64,000 nt of DNA from Azospirillum canadense. Lineage in GTDB: Bacteria; Pseudomonadota; Alphaproteobacteria; Azospirillales; Azospirillaceae. How positions within the stretch are numbered: position 1 is the stretch's first letter; each line of letters starts with the position of its first letter. Below the pieces are notes generated by a model. The model was not told the DNA's origin. It ran no database searches and worked only from the letters and a program-made list of their open reading frames with translations. Position numbers and translations under genes: made by a program. Below are positions 3,162 through 48,519 of the stretch, one piece after another. The stretch covers positions 533,001 through 597,000 of the forward strand of contig NZ_JAOQNG010000001.1 in assembly GCF_025961225.1 (NCBI RefSeq). Reading direction: 5' to 3'.

Positions 3162-4697
3162 CTACCCTTGTCCTTTCCCCTCCGGGGTGCCGAAGCCGCG
3201 TTGCGGGTTGATCGGCTGACCGTGTCTTCGCAGTTCGAAGTAGAGATCCGGGCTTCCGTCGGCGGGCATCAAACCAATGGGCTCCCCGGTGGCCACGCGC
3301 CTGCCGACGGCCGTGTCGATGCGGCCAAATCCAGCAATCAGACTATGATATCCATTGCTGTGTTCAACGATCAAGATTTGCCCATAGCCGCGAAACGGTC
3401 CGGCGAACATGATCGTTCCGGCCTGCGGCGCCACGACGGTGCCGCCCGGCCGGGCCTGGATGGTGATGCCCCGGCTGGTGGAGCCGAAGCGGTCGGATTC
3501 GCCATAGCGGACGGTGACCTTGCCGACCGCCGGCATGCGCCCGCCGACCACGGTTTCTGCGTCCGGCGCACGCTGGGCGGCGGCGAATTCCGCCTCCGCC
3601 CGCGCCCGCTCGGCAGCCTTTTCCTCAGCGGCCTTCTGCTCGGCCGCCCTCTGTTCCGCCAAGCGCTGCTCCGCGGCGCGCTGTTCGGCCAGCTTCCGCT
3701 CGGCCTCCCGGCGCTCCGCCTCCTTCTTGGCGGCGAGCTTGCGTTCGGCCTCGCGCCGTTCCGCGTCACGGCGCTCCGCCTCCTTGCGCTCGGCTTCCAG
3801 CCGCTCGGCCTCACGCTTCGCGGCGGCCTCGGCGGCGGCGCGGCGTTCCGCCTCGATGCGCTCCATCAGCTGGCGCAGGTCGGTGGCCTGCCCGGCCAGC
3901 CGGGTGGCGTGCTGCGCGACCTGGACCCTTTCCTCTTCGGTCTGGCGCGACAGCTCTTCGCGGCGCGCGACCAGCTTGGACAGGTCGTTCTGGCGTTCGG
4001 CCAGGGCGGTGCGGGCGGCCAGCGTGCGGCGGCGCTGCGTCTCCAGCGTCTCGCGCGTCTCGGCCAGCTTGGTCAGGGCGCCGGCCAGGGCGTCGGCCCG
4101 GGCGCGCAGCGCCGGCACGGTGTCGCGCAGCAGCAGGGCGGAGCGCAGCGTGTCCACCGGCCCCTCGGGCCGGGCCAGCGCGGCCTCCGGCGGAATGCGG
4201 GCTAGGCGCTGGAGCGCCGCGAGCAGGCCGGCGATCTGCTGGCGCTCGCCCTCCAGCGCGGCCGACCGGTCCTGTTCCTCGGTTTCCAACTTGGTGAGCG
4301 TGTCTTCCAACTGGGCAAGGTCGTTTTCCTGCGCGCGCTCCTCCGCGGCGAGGCCGATCACCCGGGCGCGCAGGTCGTCCAGTTCCTTTTGCAGGCTCTG
4401 CGACTGCTGGTCGAGCTGCTTCTGGCGGGATTTGTCCGCCTGGATTTCCTGCTCGACGCGCTTCAGCGTCTGCTGGGGGGCTTCGTGTTGAGCGAAGGCT
4501 GGGGTGGAGAGGAGGAGGGCGAGGAGGGTAAGCGCGTGCGCTGGGCCCCCACCCAACCCTCCCCCACTTCGCAGGGGAGGGCTTTGGGGGTCGTGCTGCG
4601 GAGTTCCCTCCCCCGTCGAAGATGGGGGAGGGTTAGGGTGGGGGCCCAGAGCAAGGACGGTCGCGAGGACGGTCCGCCAGGTCTGCTCTGCGCCCAT
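3162..4697 (-). CDS. envC: EnvC-like murein hydrolase activator, signal peptide interrupted by an in-frame repeat
   Basis: A 511-residue periplasmic coiled-coil protein with a C-terminal LytM (M23) domain. The coiled coil spans about residues 70-370 and includes a long Ala/Glu/Arg-rich stretch of AERREAERK units. The LytM domain lacks the zinc ligands of active M23 enzymes: the usual HxH is replaced in SPDLYFELR. This fits EnvC/NlpD-type activators of amidases rather than hydrolases. Odd feature: the N-terminus reads MGAEQTWRTVLATVLALG, then 35 residues encoded by a palindromic repeat, then ALTLLALLLSTPAFAQ. The hydrophobic core and cleavage site of the signal peptide are therefore split by the repeat. 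Translation could instead begin at a TTG within the repeat. The gene starts 3 bp after gpmI. Confidence 0.9.
   Translation of the reverse strand: MGAEQTWRTVLATVLALGPHPNPPPSSTGEGTPQHDPQSPPLRSGGGLGGGPAHALTLLALLLSTPAFAQHEAPQQTLKRVEQEIQADKSRQKQLDQQSQSLQKELDDLRARVIGLAAEERAQENDLAQLEDTLTKLETEEQDRSAALEGERQQIAGLLAALQRLARIPPEAALARPEGPVDTLRSALLLRDTVPALRARADALAGALTKLAETRETLETQRRRTLAARTALAERQNDLSKLVARREELSRQTEEERVQVAQHATRLAGQATDLRQLMERIEAERRAAAEAAAKREAERLEAERKEAERRDAERREAERKLAAKKEAERREAERKLAEQRAAEQRLAEQRAAEQKAAEEKAAERARAEAEFAAAQRAPDAETVVGGRMPAVGKVTVRYGESDRFGSTSRGITIQARPGGTVVAPQAGTIMFAGPFRGYGQILIVEHSNGYHSLIAGFGRIDTAVGRRVATGEPIGLMPADGSPDLYFELRRHGQPINPQRGFGTPEGKGQG
4543..4647. repeat. 105-bp palindromic element inside envC
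   Basis: Outer arms 4543-4565 and 4624-4647 are inverted copies of a C-rich motif (GGGCCCCCACCC then AACCCTCCCCC) with one small difference. An inner pair (GGGGAGGG near 4573, CCCTCCCC near 4606) makes a nested hairpin. The length is exactly 35 codons, so the envC frame stays open through it. It belongs to the same C-rich palindrome family as 7888-8148, 30740-30805 and 57488-57632. Confidence 0.85.
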
Positions 4698-39768: not shown

Positions 39769-40668
39769 ATGACTGTTCAAAAACGTTCAGCCCCGCCTTC
39801 AGTCCCGCTGGCCGCGGCCCTGGATTGGGACGACCTGCGCGTCTTCCTGGAACTGGCCCGGGTCGGCAGCCTGTCGGCGGCGGCTCGGGCCCTGGGGCTC
39901 AGCCACGCCACGGTCGGGCGGCGCATCGCCGCGCTGGAGGCGACGCTCGGCCGCCCGCTGGTGGACCGCCGCCCCGACGGCTATGGCCTGACCGTGGACG
40001 GGGAGGCGGTGCGCGCGCTCGCCGAGGGGATGGACGAGCGGGCGCTCGCCATCCTTCGCCGCGCCGGGGGCGGGGAGGAGCTGGCCGGCACGGTGCGGCT
40101 GACGATGACGCAGGCGCTGGCCGATCGCTTCCTGGTGCCGCGGCTGGCGCGGCTGCGCGCCCGGCATCCGGCCCTGGACCTGGAGGTGATCGCCGACAAC
40201 CGCTCCCTCAGCCTTGCGCGGCGGGAGGCGGATCTCGCCATCCGGCTCGCTCGGCCGCAGAGCGGGGAGCTGTTCGCCCGGCGGCTCGCGACGGTCGGCT
40301 ACGCCCTCCACGCCGCCCCGGGCGCGCCCGACGTCCTGGTCGGCTTCGACGAAGCGCTGGCCGACCTGCCGGAGGCGGCGTGGCTTGCCCGGCACGCCGG
40401 GGGGCGGCGGATCGCCTTCCGCTCCAACAGCGTGCAGGCGCAGCTGGCCGCGGCGAAGGGCGGGTTCGGTGCGGCGTTGCTGCCCTGCTGGCTGGCGGCG
40501 GAGGAGGCGGGGCTGGAGCAGCTGCCGACAACGGCGCCACCACTGGTGCGGGAAGCGTGGCTGGTTGTCCATCGCGACCGCAAGGATGTGCCCCGCGTCC
40601 GCGCGGTGATCGATCACATCGTTGAACTGTTCGAGGCGGAGCGCGCGCTGCTGGCCGGGGAGGGCTGA
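39769..40668 (+). CDS. LysR-family transcriptional regulator
   Basis: A 299-residue regulator. The N-terminal winged helix spans about residues 18-78: LRVFLELARVGSLSAAARAL then GLSHATVGRRIAALE. The effector-binding domain follows (VRLTMTQALADRFLVPRL). It is divergent from the isochorismatase-like gene and is likely its regulator. The ligand is unknown. Its last 55 bp overlap the convergent histidine kinase gene. Confidence 0.92.
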   Translation: MTVQKRSAPPSVPLAAALDWDDLRVFLELARVGSLSAAARALGLSHATVGRRIAALEATLGRPLVDRRPDGYGLTVDGEAVRALAEGMDERALAILRRAGGGEELAGTVRLTMTQALADRFLVPRLARLRARHPALDLEVIADNRSLSLARREADLAIRLARPQSGELFARRLATVGYALHAAPGAPDVLVGFDEALADLPEAAWLARHAGGRRIAFRSNSVQAQLAAAKGGFGAALLPCWLAAEEAGLEQLPTTAPPLVREAWLVVHRDRKDVPRVRAVIDHIVELFEAERALLAGEG

Positions 40669-42491
40669 AGGCCGGCTTCCCCGCCTTCGTCTGCTTTGGC
40701 CTCCTTGGCGGCGGTCGGCCGCGCGTCGCGCGGCACCTCCACCATGAAGATCGCCCCGCGGCCGGGGCGCGACAGCACGCGCAGGCGGTAGCCGAGAAGC
40801 CGGGTCAGCCGTGCCACGGTGGCGAGGCCCAGCCCCAGCCCCTTGCGGCGGTCCCGCTCCGGGTTGCCGATCTGGTAGAAGTCCTCGAAGATCAGGTGCA
40901 TGCGGTCCTGCGGGATGCCGGGGCCGGTGTCCTGCACCTTGATCGCGACGAACTCCGCGCCGACGCGGCAGGCCAGCCGGATGGTGCCGGTGCGCGTGTA
41001 TTTCAGCGCGTTGCTCAGCAGATTGCGCACGATGCGTTCCAGCATCGACGGGTCGGTCGTCACGCGCACGTTGCAGCTGACGACGCGGAAGGCCAGCCCC
41101 TTGTCCGCGGCCTCCATCCGGATGTCCTCGCTGATGCGGGCCAGGAAGGCCGGCAGGTCGATCTCGGTCAGCTGCGGGCGGATGACGCCCGTCTCCAGCA
41201 TGGCGATGTCCATCAGCGAGTTCAGCATGCGCTGCGTCGCCTCGAAGGCGTCGCGGGCGGAGTCGACCAACTTCACGGCGGTCGGCGTGTCCGCCCGCTC
41301 CCCGATCATGTGCAGGTAGATGCCCAGCGTTTGCAGGGGCTGGCGCAGGTCGTGGCTGGCAGCGGCCAGGAAGCGCGACTTGGCGGCGTTCGCCTCCTCC
41401 GCCTCCGCCCGGGCGCGGGCGAGCGCGTGGTAGCTGCGGCGCAGCTCCGCCATGCGGTTGCGGTCCTGGAGCACGGAATTGACGACGGTAACCAGCAGCA
41501 GCGCGATGATCACGCCGGCGACCAGCACGGCGCGGGGTGTGGCGTGGTCGATCCCCGCCTCGAAGGCGGGGGCGCTGGCGATGCGCAGTGTCCAGCGGCG
41601 GCCGAAGACGTCGATGTGCCGGGATTCCTGGAAGCGCGGGTGGTGGATGGACGACTTTTCGAACAGCAGGGCGTCCGGTTCGGTCGAGGTGCCGTCATAG
41701 AGTTGGAGGTCCAAGTCATCGGCCGACCCGGGCTTCAGGATCGCCCGCATCAGGTCGTGCATGCGGAAGGGGCTGTAGACGAAGCCCAGCAGCGCCGCGT
41801 GCCGGTCGGCGGCGGTCGCCAGCGGCCGGCGCTGGTCGTAGACGGGCAGATAGATCAGGAAGCCGGGCTGCACGTCGCTGTCCGTCTCCTGCACCAGGCG
41901 GAGCTTGCCGGTGGCGCTGGGGCTGCCCGTGTCGCGGGCGCGCTCCATGGTGGCGCGGCGCATCGGTTCGGAATGCATGTCGTAGCCGAAGGCCCGCAGG
42001 TTGCGGCTGGCGAAGGGCTCGATGTAGACGACCGGGAAATATTCGGGCCGCACCCCGTGCGGGGTGACATCGTAGCTGTAGAAGCCCTCGGCGCGGATGA
42101 TGGCCTCGTGCATCTCCAGGTCGGCGGCCACCACGCGCTTGGCGTAGCCGATCCCCTGGATGCCCGGATAGCGGTCCTCCACATGCAGGCCGGACACGTA
42201 GGTCCGCCATTCTTCGCGGGAGGCGCGGCCCCCGGCCGCGTTCATCATCGCCACGCCGCCGTGCAGCATCTGCTCGTAGGCGCCGAGGCGCGACGCGACG
42301 TCGCTGGTCAGGTCCCCCGCCCGCGCCTGGAAGCGCGCGTGGGCCAGCCGGTCGTTCTGGTCGCTGAGCAGCCACCAGGCCAGCCCCGTCAGCAGCAGGC
42401 TGAGGCCGAAGACCACCCAGCTCTCCCAGGAACGGAGCGGCCGCCCCTGAGGGCGGTCGTGAGGGCGGTCGCCCGGCGGTGTCGGGATCAT
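40614..42491 (-). CDS. CHASE-domain sensor histidine kinase
   Basis: A 625-residue inner-membrane kinase. Order: membrane span (WVVFGLSLLLTGLAWWLL), periplasmic CHASE domain (YPGIQGIGYAKRV, GFYSYDVTPHGVRPEYFPV), second span (AVLVAGVIIALLLVTVVN), coiled coil, HisKA with the phospho-acceptor in AAASHDLRQPLQT, then HATPase (NLLSNALKY, DTGPGIP, GLGLGLATV). CHASE domains bind small organic ligands, unknown here. ATG 42491 comes one base after the response-regulator stop. Confidence 0.92.
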   Translation of the reverse strand: MIPTPPGDRPHDRPQGRPLRSWESWVVFGLSLLLTGLAWWLLSDQNDRLAHARFQARAGDLTSDVASRLGAYEQMLHGGVAMMNAAGGRASREEWRTYVSGLHVEDRYPGIQGIGYAKRVVAADLEMHEAIIRAEGFYSYDVTPHGVRPEYFPVVYIEPFASRNLRAFGYDMHSEPMRRATMERARDTGSPSATGKLRLVQETDSDVQPGFLIYLPVYDQRRPLATAADRHAALLGFVYSPFRMHDLMRAILKPGSADDLDLQLYDGTSTEPDALLFEKSSIHHPRFQESRHIDVFGRRWTLRIASAPAFEAGIDHATPRAVLVAGVIIALLLVTVVNSVLQDRNRMAELRRSYHALARARAEAEEANAAKSRFLAAASHDLRQPLQTLGIYLHMIGERADTPTAVKLVDSARDAFEATQRMLNSLMDIAMLETGVIRPQLTEIDLPAFLARISEDIRMEAADKGLAFRVVSCNVRVTTDPSMLERIVRNLLSNALKYTRTGTIRLACRVGAEFVAIKVQDTGPGIPQDRMHLIFEDFYQIGNPERDRRKGLGLGLATVARLTRLLGYRLRVLSRPGRGAIFMVEVPRDARPTAAKEAKADEGGEAGLQPSPASSARSASNSSTM

Positions 42492-42492
42492 G

Positions 42493-42972
42493 TCACGCCG
42501 GGGCCCCCCTGGCGGGAGGTCCATCAGCCGACGGATCCGACGAAGGATCGCCGCCGGTCCCCTGGAGGGCCTTGCCCAGCACCGCCTGGAGGTGGGGCGG
42601 CAGGACGGGCTTCTGCAGAATGGTCAGCCCGCGGGCGCGCGCCTCCCGGATGCCGTCGGTGGAGGTGTCGCCGGTGATGATCACGGCCGGCACGTGGGTC
42701 CCGACCTCCGTCCGGATGCGGTCGATCGCCTGCACGCCGGTGCGCCCCTCGCGCAGGCGGTAGTCGGCCAGGATGGCGTGCGGCCGCTCGTCGAGCGCGC
42801 TCAGCCGCTCCACCGCTTCGCCTTCGCTTTCGGCGGCGATGACGCGGTAGCCCCACATCTGGAGAAGCAGGTTCAGCGCCTGCAGCACGGTCCGCTCGTC
42901 GTCAATGACCATGACGAGCTTTTCCCGCGCCTCGCTGCCCGCTTCCGTCACCGATTGCCATCCATTCGCCAC
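42493..42972 (-). CDS. Single-domain response regulator
   Basis: A 159-residue receiver protein with no output domain. VMVIDDERTVLQALN holds the acidic pocket, AILADYRLREGRTG the phosphorylated Asp, VIITGDTS the Thr switch and ILQKPVLP the Lys. It precedes the CHASE kinase in the same transcript and is its probable partner, or a phosphate sink. The GTG start at 42972 is a best guess; the frame is open to 43041. Confidence 0.85.
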   Translation of the reverse strand: MANGWQSVTEAGSEAREKLVMVIDDERTVLQALNLLLQMWGYRVIAAESEGEAVERLSALDERPHAILADYRLREGRTGVQAIDRIRTEVGTHVPAVIITGDTSTDGIREARARGLTILQKPVLPPHLQAVLGKALQGTGGDPSSDPSADGPPARGAPA

Positions 42973-43357
42973 AACCCACCCGTCGCTAAAGGCCGGTTCC
43001 AATGGCCAATGCCAAAGGCTGAAGATTATCAGGATCAACACGCCGGCCGTCAGAAAAGCATTGCCTCATGCTGCCCAGGGGCGTGGTGTTTAGCACAGGA
43101 GGTTCGCCGTTCGGTCAGTGGAATTGCCCTATTACCTCCAAAGCCCAGGGGTCCGGCGGGTCTGTTTACAGGGACCGATGACCGGGAACAGACCCCGCGA
43201 ACAGTCCTGCACGCGCAGCTTTCCATCAAAATTGCGCCCGCAATTGAAACCTGTCCACGAAAAGGATTGTGAAGCCGGTACGCATCCGCCATTCTTCCGG
43301 CCTTTCGGCTGGTTCTATGACCTGCGTTCAGGTGACCCAGTATTTCAGGCGGCGGCG
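42973..43357. other. Divergent intergenic region before cimA
   Basis: About 385 bp with two inverted repeats: GCGGGTCTGTT (43156-43166) with AACAGACCCCGC (43187-43198), and AATTGC-GCCC-GCAATT (43230-43245). Neither has a T-run, and no leader peptide rich in branched-chain codons was recognised. A promoter for cimA is expected here but not identified. Confidence 0.5.
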
Positions 43358-45175: not shown

Positions 45176-45946
45176 ATGACCTCCGGCAATAATCCCACCC
45201 GTCCGTCCGTCCTGGGCGGCCCGACCATCATCCTGGTCCAGCCGCAGCTTGGCGAGAACATCGGCGCCTGCGCGCGGGCCATGCTGAATTGCGGCCTGAC
45301 CGAGCTTCGGCTCGTTAAGCCGCGCGACGGCTGGCCGAACGAGAAATCCGTGGCCTCCGCGTCGGGCGCCGACCTCGTGCTCGACGGCGCCAAGCTGTAT
45401 GAGACGACGGCCGAGGCGGTGGCCGACCTGAACGTCGTCTTCGCGACGACCGTGCGCACCCGCGGCATGATCCAGGAGTTCATCACCCCGCGCATCGCCG
45501 CCACGGAGCTGCGCGCCCATTTCGACGCCGGCCACAAGACCGGCGTGCTGTTCGGGCCGGAGCGCACGGGGCTCGTCAACGACGACCTGACGCTGGCGGA
45601 AAAGCTGATCACCGTGCCGCTGAACCCGTCTTTTTCCTCGCTGAACCTGGCGCAGGCGGTGCTGCTCATCGGCTACGAGTGGTTCCAGACCGGCGAGATC
45701 CCGCCCGACCGCGTCCTGCACACCGGCCAGACCCGCCCGGCGACCAAGGCGGAGCTGCTGAACTTCTTCGAGCATCTGGAAGGGGACCTGGATCGCACCG
45801 GCTTCTTCACCTCGCCGGAGAAGCGCCCATCCATGGTCCGCACGCTGCGCAACGCGCTGGAGCGCATGCAGATGACCGAGCAGGAGGTGCGCACCTTCCA
45901 CGGCGTCATCGCCGCGCTGACCGGCCGCCGCAAGGGCGAGCCGTAA
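45176..45946 (+). CDS. trmJ: tRNA/rRNA methyltransferase, TrmJ-like (SPOUT)
   Basis: 2'-O-methyltransferase of the SpoU class. Seen: LVQPQLGENIGACARAMLNCGL, FATTVRTRGM (TrmJ-type), FGPERTGLVNDDL and the knot VPLNPSFSSLNLAQAVLLIGYEW. 256 residues, as in TrmJ, which modifies position 32 of tRNAs. Assignment within the family is by motif only. ATG 45176 lies 63 bp after the hairpin. Confidence 0.88.
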   Translation: MTSGNNPTRPSVLGGPTIILVQPQLGENIGACARAMLNCGLTELRLVKPRDGWPNEKSVASASGADLVLDGAKLYETTAEAVADLNVVFATTVRTRGMIQEFITPRIAATELRAHFDAGHKTGVLFGPERTGLVNDDLTLAEKLITVPLNPSFSSLNLAQAVLLIGYEWFQTGEIPPDRVLHTGQTRPATKAELLNFFEHLEGDLDRTGFFTSPEKRPSMVRTLRNALERMQMTEQEVRTFHGVIAALTGRRKGEP

Positions 45947-46003
45947 CCTCATTCGCTTCTAACTTGTTGTCCGGCGGGGGCATTCGCGGCCTATACTGCT
46001 CCC

Positions 46004-46729
46004 ATGGAATACACCCTCCAGCATATGGACGTGGGCCTCGTCCTGCTCGACGGCGACCGGCGCGTGGTGTCGGTCAACGCCGCGGCGGAGCGGATGGTCG
46101 GACGCTCCCGTCCGTTGCTGGGGGCTAGCCTGCACGACCTGCACCCGCCGGGCAGCCGCGCCAAGGTGGAGCTTCTCCTGGCCGCCGCCCACGATCCTAA
46201 TTCCCCGGCGGCCGCGGGCTCCATGATGGTGGCGCTGCCCGGCCGGACCATCGTGGTGAAGGCCTCGGCGCTCCGCCAGGGTGACGCGACCTTCGTTGCG
46301 CTGATGCTGTTCGAGGTTCCCAAGCCCGGCGCCGTGGCGGAACCGCCGCCGCTTGCGCCCCCGCCGATTGCCGAACTGGCGCCGGAGCCCGCCCCGCCGC
46401 TGGTGAAGCTGCCCATCACGACGCGCCAGGGCGTGGTTCTGCTCGACCCGACGGCGGCCGTCTATGTCCAGGCCAATGGGCATTACACGACCGTGCACAC
46501 GGCCGAGGGGGCCTTTTTCTGCTCCCTGTCCCTGTCCGAGCTGGAGACGCGGCTGGACGGGCGGCAGTTCGTGCGGGCGCACCGCGGCTACATTGTGAAC
46601 CTGCGCCACGCCCGGGCCGTCGACCGCAGCGACGGGCGCGCCGCCTTTGTCATGGCCGCCCCGGGCTCGCCCCGCGTCCCGGTCAGCCGAGGGCGGATCG
46701 AGCAACTGAAGAAGCTGCTGGCGCTGTAG
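46004..46729 (+). CDS. PAS-LytTR transcriptional regulator, RcoM-like
   Basis: A 241-residue protein. A PAS domain (about residues 1-105) is joined by a Pro-rich linker (EPPPLAPPPIAELAPEPAPP) to a LytTR DNA-binding domain (VVLLDPTAAVYVQANGHYTT, FVRAHRGYIVNLRHARAV). This is the layout of RcoM, a haem-PAS CO sensor. His44 and His47 (SLHDLHPPGSR) and Met74/Met75 (AGSMMVALP) could supply axial ligands. The 30-residue spacing His44-Met74 equals the spacing I recall for RcoM, but that comparison is from memory. A TATACT box at 45992 would give a nearly leaderless transcript. cowN lies downstream. Confidence 0.8.
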   Translation: MEYTLQHMDVGLVLLDGDRRVVSVNAAAERMVGRSRPLLGASLHDLHPPGSRAKVELLLAAAHDPNSPAAAGSMMVALPGRTIVVKASALRQGDATFVALMLFEVPKPGAVAEPPPLAPPPIAELAPEPAPPLVKLPITTRQGVVLLDPTAAVYVQANGHYTTVHTAEGAFFCSLSLSELETRLDGRQFVRAHRGYIVNLRHARAVDRSDGRAAFVMAAPGSPRVPVSRGRIEQLKKLLAL

Positions 46730-46748
46730 GCCCGGCGTTGCTGTCTTG

Positions 46749-46800
46749 GCCATTCGCGCATGGACGAAACCGTTCACGCGGTCCGCGCGCCGTTCATGCA
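46749..46800 (+). promoter_or_regulatory. Three 12-bp direct repeats at a 20-bp period upstream of cowN
   Basis: GCCATTCGCGCA (46749-46760), ACCGTTCACGCG (46769-46780) and GCCGTTCATGCA (46789-46800) give the consensus RCCRTTCRYGCR. Starts are exactly 20 bp apart, about two helical turns, as for binding sites of LytTR proteins. They lie between the PAS-LytTR gene and cowN, and end 72 bp before the cowN GTG. No good -35/-10 pair follows, as expected for an activator-dependent promoter. Confidence 0.7.
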
Positions 46801-46872
46801 GGGCGACTTGTCTTGGACGCCGCGGTCCGCGATCAGAGAGACCAACCATCCTCTGCCGTGGGAACCGCAACC

Positions 46873-47169
46873 GTGGACGCAACCGACTCCCCCGACCGCT
46901 ACGTCTCCTTCAAGGGTATCGACTGCGAAGGCAATTCGCGCCGCATCATCGAGCGGCTGTACTCGCACATCAACGACCCCGCCAAGACCAACGCCTTCTG
47001 GGAACGCTTCCGGGAGAAGCTGGCCGTCGCCGACGACCCGCTGAAGCGGCAGGCCGACGGGCTGTGCCTGCTCTGCGCCAACGTCTATTACATCTCCGAC
47101 CTGTTTGAGGAGCACGACGACGAGGAAGGTCTGGCGATGCTGCGCAAGCTGGAGGACGAGTGCTGCTGA
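46873..47169 (+). CDS. cowN: N2-fixation sustaining protein CowN
   Basis: A 98-residue cytoplasmic protein that lets nitrogenase work in the presence of carbon monoxide. RYVSFKGIDCEGNSRRIIER at the N-terminus, DPAKTNAFWERFREKL in the middle and the C-terminal LFEEHDDEEGLAMLRKLEDE then CC match the CowN family. GTG 46873 is chosen (TGGGAACC upstream); a GTG at 46858 would add five residues. The PAS-LytTR gene and its likely sites lie just upstream. No nif genes are in the window. Confidence 0.9.
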   Translation: MDATDSPDRYVSFKGIDCEGNSRRIIERLYSHINDPAKTNAFWERFREKLAVADDPLKRQADGLCLLCANVYYISDLFEEHDDEEGLAMLRKLEDECC

Positions 47170-47190
47170 CGGCCCGCCGCCTTTGAAGGG

Positions 47191-48519
47191 TCACCGCTTC
47201 CCGCTCAGCTTGCGCGCGCTGGCGCCCGTGTAGGACACGCGCCAGACGGAGCCCAGGCTGTCGGCGATCAACAGACTGCCGTCCTTGGCGATGGCGAGGC
47301 CGGCCGGGCGACCCCAGGCCAGGGGGCGCTTGTCACCGTCCTCCTGGTTCGGCAGGCGGAAGCCGCTGGCGAAGACCTCGTAGCCGCCGGCCGGCTTCTT
47401 GCCCTCGAACGGCACGAAGACCACCGTGTAGCCCACGGGCTCCGAACGGCTGGAGGAGCCGTGCAGCGCGACGAAGGCGCCGGTGCGGTAGCGCGCCGGC
47501 CCGTTCAGCCGGTCGGCGAAGACCAGGCCGATCGGCGCGGAATGGGATTCCAGCAGCACGTCCGGCACGATGGTCCGCGCGACGAGGTCCGGCCGCTTGT
47601 CGGCGAAGCCCGGTTGCGGGTTCGGGCCGGCGTAGGCGTAGGGCCAGCCGTAGAAGCCCTCCGGCTCGACCCTCGTGAAGAAGTCCGGGGCCAAGCCGTC
47701 GCCCAGCCCGTCGCGCTCGTTCACCACGGCGTAGAGGTCGCTGCTGCCCGGCCGGAAGGCCATGCCCACCGGGTTGCGCAGGCCGGTGGCGACGGTGCGC
47801 GCCTCCCCGCCGTCCAGCGTCCCGTCGCCCATAATTCCCTCGATGGGGAATTCCTGGATGGTGGCGCGCGGCGGCGGCTCCTCCGCGAGGTTGGCGGCGG
47901 AGCCGACGCCGACGTAGACGTGCTTGCCGTCCGGCGCGATGGCCAGCGAGCGCGTGTCGTGCCCCTCCCGGCTGCCCAGTGCCCCCGGCGGGGTGAGGCG
48001 CTGCCGCTCCCCCGGCGCCGTGGTGGCGCCCTCCCGCCAGGGCAGCCGCCACACCGCCTCCGCATCGGCGACGTAGACGAAGCCTTCGTGGAAGGCGAGC
48101 CCGAAAGGCTTGTCGAAGCCCGCCGCCCATAGCCAGGACTCGTCGGCCTCGCCCTTGCCGTCGGTGTCGCGCAGAAGGGTCAGCGTGCCGGGCTTCTGCT
48201 GCGCCACCAGCACACCGCCGTCGGGCAGGACCAGCAGGTTGCGGGCGTTCTCCACATGGTCGCGGAACAGCGTGGCGCGGAAGCCGGCGGGCACCTGCAA
48301 CGCCGCCTTGGCCGGCCGGTCGACCGGGACCGGCTTGTTGGACACCGCCCCTGCTTTCGTGGAGGGCGTGGCGTTGGGGGCGGGAAGATCCTCCACCGTC
48401 AGGCGGACGGTGTCACCGGCGGTGTGTGCCACATCGTCCGCAAGAGCGGGGGCGGCGAGTATCATATTCAGGAGCACGGCGAAGGCGAGGCGCTTGCTTC
48501 GGAGTCTGCTGGTCGTCAA
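47191..48519 (-). CDS. Secreted sorbosone/glucose dehydrogenase-like beta-propeller protein
   Basis: A 442-residue periplasmic protein with a signal peptide (RLAFAVLLNMILAAPALA). VPAGFRATLFRDHVENARNL, FGLAFHEGFVYVADAEAVWR, HDTRSLAIAPDGKHVYVGVG and EFPIEGIMGDGTLDGGEART fit the PQQ-type glucose/sorbosone dehydrogenase family. Whether PQQ is bound is not known. The only start in a suitable place is a TTG at 48519. It is divergent from rpsD and converges on cowN. Confidence 0.85.
   Translation of the reverse strand: MTTSRLRSKRLAFAVLLNMILAAPALADDVAHTAGDTVRLTVEDLPAPNATPSTKAGAVSNKPVPVDRPAKAALQVPAGFRATLFRDHVENARNLLVLPDGGVLVAQQKPGTLTLLRDTDGKGEADESWLWAAGFDKPFGLAFHEGFVYVADAEAVWRLPWREGATTAPGERQRLTPPGALGSREGHDTRSLAIAPDGKHVYVGVGSAANLAEEPPPRATIQEFPIEGIMGDGTLDGGEARTVATGLRNPVGMAFRPGSSDLYAVVNERDGLGDGLAPDFFTRVEPEGFYGWPYAYAGPNPQPGFADKRPDLVARTIVPDVLLESHSAPIGLVFADRLNGPARYRTGAFVALHGSSSRSEPVGYTVVFVPFEGKKPAGGYEVFASGFRLPNQEDGDKRPLAWGRPAGLAIAKDGSLLIADSLGSVWRVSYTGASARKLSGKR

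Follow-up and report, generated by a model that had tools for sequence, protein, structure and literature searches.

An RcoM-type regulator, a triple-repeat operator and cowN as a conserved unit predicted to link CO sensing to nitrogenase protection in Azospirillum

The 64,000-nucleotide stretch of Azospirillum canadense DNA analysed here (the window) carries a gene for a regulator with PAS and LytTR domains, followed on the same strand (+) by cowN; the gap between the two genes is 143 bp. The following features were assigned at the locus.

45992..45997, + strand: -10-like TATACT directly 5' of the rcoM start, read from the sequence; putative function
46004..46729, + strand: RcoM-like PAS-LytTR one-component regulator, 241 aa (Pfam PAS_4 and LytTR, homology)
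46013..46318, + strand: PAS domain, residues 4-105 (Pfam and AlphaFold model)
46142..46144, + strand: codon of His47, predicted proximal haem ligand (His74 in Burkholderia numbering); His in 59/59 sequences
46223..46225, + strand: codon of Met74, predicted CO-displaceable haem ligand (Met104), aligned to Met105 of the homologue P0121
46433..46720, + strand: LytTR DNA-binding domain, residues 144-239 (Pfam)
46753..46760, + strand: operator repeat 1, TTCGCGCA, full match to TTCNNGCA, the RcoM1 consensus in the available text of PMC11347149
46773..46780, + strand: operator repeat 2, TTCACGCG, last letter unlike TTCNNGCA (sequence)
46793..46800, + strand: operator repeat 3, TTCATGCA, full match to TTCNNGCA (sequence)
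46808..46810, + strand: -35-like TTG, 7 nt after repeat 3 (conserved offset); putative promoter role
46873..47169, + strand: cowN, GTG start, 98 aa (PF20543 and NF033689)

The original prediction had named a CowN-encoding gene with a PAS plus LytTR gene directly upstream, and both assignments were borne out. The downstream product scored 128 bits against PF20543 and 123.7 bits against the NCBIfam equivalog NF033689 (cut-off 48), and a Pfam scan placed PAS_4 (E 3e-7, residues 6-85) and LytTR (PF04397, E 2e-20, residues 144-239) in the 241-aa product of 46004-46729. The most likely CowN start is the GTG at 46873, because a start codon followed by GA is kept at this position in 28/28 aligned azospirilla, the window included (25 GTG, 3 ATG). 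Given the -10-like TATACT just 5' of its start, the rcoM transcript is probably leaderless. A TrmJ-type methyltransferase gene is the 5' neighbour of the regulator gene, and a GSDH-type ORF (28.1 bits, cut-off 25) lies 3' of cowN on the opposite strand. At window positions 40614-43041 (-), a sensor-kinase-like ORF adjoins a receiver-domain-like ORF, as judged by eye from the ORF list.

The layout of the regulator is that of RcoM, with an N-terminal PAS domain, a C-terminal LytTR domain and no receiver domain in either the Pfam scan or the structure model. The AlphaFold model has a PAS fold, with pLDDT 61 for the first ten residues and blocks of 79-96 beyond them. When this model was used in a fold search, the PAS matches included the haem oxygen sensors Aer2, FixL and DosP, and non-haem PAS proteins matched the PAS half as well as haem ones, some of them ranking higher; such a search returns many kinds of PAS domain and cannot separate haem from other ligands, and a family missing from it is uninformative. 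In a PDB sequence search, DosP and WalK matched on the PAS side at E < 0.001, and no chain named RcoM was among the matches listed. Many of the best 120 of 125 homologues are labelled Azospirillum, and six JGI records among them are named CO-responsive transcriptional regulator RcoM. As a relative in a CO-oxidation setting we chose P0121, a Paraburkholderia aromaticivorans homologue on plasmid pBN2, whose gene lies near an annotated aerobic carbon-monoxide dehydrogenase large subunit gene and partner genes. The window regulator aligned with P0121 over its whole length at 30% identity. In the plasmid collection, the search matched a single full-length relative with annotation, together with two Caballeronia sequences that had none.

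His47 aligns with His75 of P0121, and Met74 with its Met105. We equate the two residues with His74 and Met104 of Burkholderia RcoM-1, with a predicted role in haem binding. His74 is what we take to be a haem ligand position of Burkholderia RcoM-1, Cys94 is presumably the ferric haem ligand position of Burkholderia RcoM, and Met104 is reportedly named as an RcoM residue in the title of a cited paper. In reduced RcoM, according to the available text of PMC9670170, the haem ligands are His and Met, the latter giving way to CO.

Conservation of the ligand positions was followed in 59 sequences, namely the window regulator with 22 Azospirillum relatives, 22 other cowN-linked regulators and 14 others, the last being P0121 and 13 database hits whose neighbourhood was unexamined; L127, which is without the PAS part, was excluded. 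The His47 column held His in 59/59. The Met74 column held Met in 23/23 Azospirillum rows, 12/22 other cowN-linked rows and 12/14 others, the remainder being Leu. The ten cowN-linked rows with Leu came from Xanthobacter (4), Azorhizobium (2), Rhodoblastus, Skermanella, Roseospirillum and UBA2562; in Roseospirillum and UBA2562 a Met follows one residue later, so that 8/22 are without Met in either column. The original prediction had offered His44/His47 and Met74/Met75 as candidate axial ligands. The residues stand at those positions, and His47 and Met74 held up through their alignment with the RcoM ligands; His44 (His in 22/23 Azospirillum rows and 0/36 others) and Met75 (a variable column) are not conserved and were rejected. 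In Xanthobacter, Azorhizobium and Rhodoblastus, the cowN-linked RcoM homologues at L123, L125, L130, L131, L136, L138 and L147 have Leu in place of the CO-displaceable Met of RcoM.

Cys was found in the Cys94 column of 0/45 cowN-linked rows (the window regulator has Asp) and 11/14 others, but the column is a gap in 21/22 of the non-Azospirillum cowN-linked rows and is therefore alignment-dependent. Eleven of the 23 Azospirillum rows have a Cys two residues before Met74, where the window regulator has Gly, and a Cys elsewhere in cowN-linked regulators could serve in place of Cys94. Because Met74 is Leu in 10/22 and the Cys94 column is without Cys in 45/45, the ligand chemistry of cowN-linked regulators may differ from that of RcoM. 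We treat Cys94 as a feature of the Burkholderia-type branch and not as one that defines the family; if it were defining, the regulator would be RcoM-like only. In the tree, the Azospirillum regulators clustered with one Telmatospirillum row nested inside, and the Cys-bearing rows clustered with P0108 nested inside; the cowN-linked rows as a whole formed no supported single clade, and the deepest forks were weak.

The gap upstream of cowN holds the triple repeat that had been considered suited to a LytTR protein. Its repeats start exactly 20 bp apart in the arrangement TTCGCGCA-12-TTCACGCG-12-TTCATGCA, and the RcoM1 operator, as described in the available text of PMC11347149, comprises three copies of TTCNNGCA, spaced by 12-13 bp and lying upstream of the -35. 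We regard the triplet as a close match to the published operator and as the predicted regulator site upstream of cowN. When the 143-bp gap was dinucleotide-shuffled 20,000 times, no shuffle contained an exact-period TTCNNGC triplet and 5 contained a looser form; by these counts the triple repeat is real. At one mismatch or fewer, the triplet pattern has one site in the whole genome (9,732,847 bases), at cowN. As evidence, the exact match inside the gap is strong; the absence of other genomic sites is mild evidence for a single target, because about 0.8 chance sites per genome are expected at this stringency under uniform base odds, and more degenerate sites are missed. Loosening the third repeat added a single one-mismatch site, on contig C2, a rate equal to that of the reversed control.

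The first TTG after repeat 3 lies 7 nt downstream in 29/30 Azospirillum loci and 8 nt downstream in one (L001-L030, best triplet at a fixed 20-bp period per locus). A sigma-70 consensus scan of 45900-47250 found no promoter, and the -35 and -10 calls therefore rest on conservation and reading of the sequence. Scanning of the gap for NifA, sigma-54, FNR-like and CooA-like patterns found none of them. The sigma-54 and FNR-like patterns were used in their familiar forms; the TGT-N10-ACA NifA pattern and the CooA site pattern were taken from the literature.

Within the genus, 41 genomes were compared (37 including the window genome, and 4 extra). cowN was found in 37/41 (33/37 and 4/4, respectively); the first cowN search had covered 61 genomes, and the 24 outside the genus were all without it. 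The regulator was present at E<=1e-20 in 36/41. Both genes occurred together in 36 genomes, cowN alone in one (G422), the regulator alone in none, and neither in four (G003, G027, G029 and G031). In 35/36, an intact regulator gene shared contig and strand with cowN and lay less than 3 kb upstream of it, within 600 bp in 30 and at most 2,977 bp away. In the remaining genome, G034, cowN is adjoined by a LytTR-only ORF, and a different contig carries the intact regulator gene. This arrangement is seen in A. doebereinerae GSF71, with a PAS-less LytTR ORF by cowN (L177 2345-3143(-), L175 2607-3401(-), also L127). Over-cut-off nifH was found in 37/41 genomes; in G009 the gene is split over contig ends, and no match over cut-off was found in G027, G029 or G031. 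Three of the four genomes without the regulator and cowN pair are thus also without nifH over cut-off, and G003 has nifH.

An operator site lay within 300 bp of cowN in 32/37 cowN genomes (21 exact, 11 with one mismatch), and the pattern was not found near cowN in G009, G010, G028, G034 and G422. With a relaxed pattern (third repeat TTS, one mismatch or fewer), the 41 genomes held 111 sites, 32 at cowN and 79 elsewhere; because the reversed control gave 78, the sites away from cowN are background at most. Exact matches numbered 27, of which 21 were at cowN and 6 elsewhere. One exact TTCATGCA triple repeat away from cowN, in G009 (L174 2668-2714(-)), lies apparently 5' of an uncharacterised ORF and is possibly a second target or a chance occurrence. 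Where extra DNA separates rcoM from cowN (the A. brasilense clade, G006, G010 and G024), the triplet remains with cowN. In the A. brasilense clade, an ORF of ~70 aa without a Pfam match lies between the two genes (L003 1123-1350(+), also L016).

To look outside the genus, we scanned for cowN with a CowN alignment of six rows, which gave 150 loci; the best 80, from named records, were kept. A regulator was near cowN in 45 of these best 80 loci (HMM >60 bits, the LytTR-only fragment L127 being counted as present) and absent from 35, although L095, L099, L115 and L137 have <800 bp upstream, where a regulator could be missed. For each locus, the 200 bp upstream were searched for their best TTCNNGCA triplet, which was compared with 400 dinucleotide shuffles and called significant at p<0.01. 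Significant triplets were found in 37/45 loci with the regulator and 0/35 without, so that among the 80 named cowN loci the operator was significant only where a regulator gene was nearby. Excluding 24 Azospirillum loci, of which one is titled Roseomonas, left counts of 14/22 with the regulator and 0/34 without. The spacers were 12/12 in 31 of the 37 significant triplets. The search for the same gene pair in other genomes, which had been proposed as a check, thus found it in 36/41 Azospirillum genomes and found the regulator at 45 of the best 80 cowN loci, the pair occurring in records labelled Telmatospirillum, Magnetospirillum, Phaeospirillum, Caenispirillum, Xanthobacter, Azorhizobium and Azospira, among others. 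In Azospira, a betaproteobacterium, the regulator gene is divergently oriented relative to cowN.

Eight of the 45 regulator-bearing loci had no significant triplet: L070 (UBA2562), L092 (Skermanella), L094 (Roseospirillum; p 0.01, two good repeats), L111, L114 and L118 (Magnetospirillum), L112 and L147 (Rhodoblastus). L112 is a MAG contig labelled Stygiobacter (Ignavibacteriota) with a Magnetospirillum-like rcoM-cowN pair, which could reflect transfer or a misbinned contig. In a phylum sample of 398 genomes, with at most seven candidates per genome scored so that the counts are lower bounds, the full-length regulator was found in at least 6 and the LytTR part only in at least 12. Among the five non-window genomes with a full-length regulator, cowN was within the 1.5-kb flanks in one.

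A natural deletion was found in Azospirillum sp. TSO35-2 (L090). There a TATAGT box at 3954, equivalent to the TATACT at 45992..45997, comes immediately after the methyltransferase gene. From 3968 the first nine rcoM codons, start codon included (MDYALQNMD), continue in frame as the CowN body (APDRYVSF), the fusion region spanning 3954-4273. Regulator and operator are absent together, and no triplet was detectable upstream of cowN (score 18, p 0.28). In this CowN, the Trp of the FW motif, kept in 6/6 alignment rows, is Arg, and the frame continues past the usual end; the gene may be decaying. The locus fits an operator that serves the regulator, and is no demonstration that a working cowN thrives without it.

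The window genome has nifH (465.6 bits, over cut-off) about 189 kb from cowN on the same contig. The model for the molybdenum CO dehydrogenase large subunit (CoxL) gave 24 matches in the window genome, the best at 701 bits against a cut-off of 991, a cut-off that 0/14 control genomes exceeded either. The two best matches bear AYRGAGR, which we take to be the form II motif. The CooS model reached 26.5 bits at best in the window genome, against a cut-off of 478. Because no molybdenum or nickel CO dehydrogenase match was over cut-off, we predict that the switch works only in the protection of nitrogenase.

Taken together, we consider it highly probable that the RcoM-type regulator, the triple operator and cowN act as one CO-responsive circuit. 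The regulator is predicted to coordinate haem with His47 and Met74; CO would likely take the place of Met74 and so convert the regulator into an activator of cowN. CowN, which protects nitrogenase from CO in other species (PMC8047169, available text), would in turn allow nitrogenase to go on working despite CO. From sequence and structural models we infer the haem, the ligand switch, CO control of the window cowN, and activation over repression, the last because the operator lies just upstream of the -35-like TTG. Control of cowN by an RcoM-type regulator as one module, as originally proposed, is supported by homology to cox-linked P0121 with the domains in the same order, the operator, co-occurrence of the genes and the association of operator with regulator.

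The PAS domain might instead sense oxygen, redox state or another cofactor, with cowN induced by low-oxygen, N2-fixing conditions and not by CO. The presence of Aer2, FixL, DosP and non-haem PAS proteins among the fold matches would suit such a sensor, as would a Met ligand that is not universal (Leu in 10/22 other cowN-linked rows). However, both His47 and Met74 align with a cox-linked RcoM homologue, and in the available text of PMC8047169 CowN protects against CO specifically and is adjoined in G. diazotrophicus by the gene for the CO sensor CooA; we think another signal improbable. That the regulator is a repressor relieved by CO would have a precedent in CoxC, a LytTR regulator with a triple operator that represses its targets, but the CoxC operator overlaps the -35 box, whereas the putative -35 TTG here is 7 nt downstream of repeat 3 in 29/30 loci, and an operator upstream of the -35 is the placement given for the activator RcoM1 (PMC11347149, available text). 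Repression is, in our judgement, quite improbable.

It is very improbable that cowN is transcribed mainly through NifA and sigma-54 or by read-through, with the neighbouring regulator playing no role. The gap is without a TGT-N10-ACA NifA site or a sigma-54 core, the triplet tracks the regulator (37/45 versus 0/35), and it remains by cowN even where other DNA parts it from rcoM; these observations outweigh, in our view, the presence of cowN without the regulator in TSO35-2 and the NifA dependence of cowN in G. diazotrophicus and R. capsulatus, where both CooA and NifA are described as controlling cowN (PMC8047169, available text). CO-dependent activation by the RcoM-type regulator is thus the reading that we retain.

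The rcoM-cowN pairing is already known from Rhodospirillum rubrum (Kerby & Roberts 2011, as cited in the available text of PMC4257681), and PMC4257681 was the only paper found that treats RcoM with CowN or nitrogenase; subscription journals were mostly outside the scope of the search, and earlier reports are possible. In the literature searched for Azospirillum and CowN, the two words occurred together only within a reference list. Like Azospirillum, R. rubrum is an alphaproteobacterial diazotroph in which rcoM adjoins cowN, a comparison by gene adjacency alone; unlike the window genome, which has no CooS or CoxL match over cut-off, it has CO dehydrogenase, alongside CooA, as described in the literature available. 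Paraburkholderia (Burkholderia) xenovorans RcoM-1 and RcoM-2 share the PAS plus LytTR one-component layout, a triple TTCNNGCA-like operator spaced by 12 bp in the published text available and, through the alignment with P0121, the His and Met positions. They are described as controlling cox CO-oxidation genes, whereas the one detected site of the window regulator is at cowN, and P0121 has Cys at the Cys94 column, which the window regulator lacks.

The RcoM-cowN arrangement is, by these sequence comparisons, a real and conserved unit of a known kind, and the ligand variation is its point of interest. The new details are the Cys94 column without Cys, the variation of Met74 to Leu, and the fusion of the rcoM start to cowN in TSO35-2 with loss of regulator and operator, a natural deletion that places cowN behind the start of its own regulator gene. 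We propose, tentatively and with somewhat less than even confidence, that diazotrophs hold an RcoM set devoted to cowN, in which loss of the Cys would let CO be read without redox gating, Met to Leu in Xanthobacteraceae and Rhodoblastus would mean a different switch, and the sensor-operator-cowN circuit would be the dominant alphaproteobacterial CO-protection module. Natural variation of this kind bears on the switching of very tight CO binders. An adjacency known from one organism becomes a regulator-operator-target unit across many genera, and azospirilla, which are plant-associated nitrogen fixers, gain a concrete, testable CO-protection circuit.

Other CO-responsive systems resemble this one in part. 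CoxC of Afipia carboxidovorans is CO-responsive and has a LytTR domain and a triple-repeat operator, but it carries an MHYT membrane sensor in place of PAS and represses cox genes (PMC11347149, available text). In Rhodobacter capsulatus and Gluconacetobacter diazotrophicus a CO sensor, CooA, likewise controls cowN, and its gene adjoins cowN in G. diazotrophicus; unlike the window regulator, CooA belongs to the CRP family and has another kind of operator (PMC11347149 and PMC8047169, available text). cooA also adjoins cowN in Rubrivivax (PMC4257681, available text). Among the loci without RcoM by HMM, Desulfuromonadales-type cowN lies beside an FKBP_C (FKBP-type isomerase) ORF in L102 and L142 and beside a NifU_N plus NifQ ORF in L106. 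In at least four betaproteobacterial loci, CRP-type regulators adjoin cowN instead.
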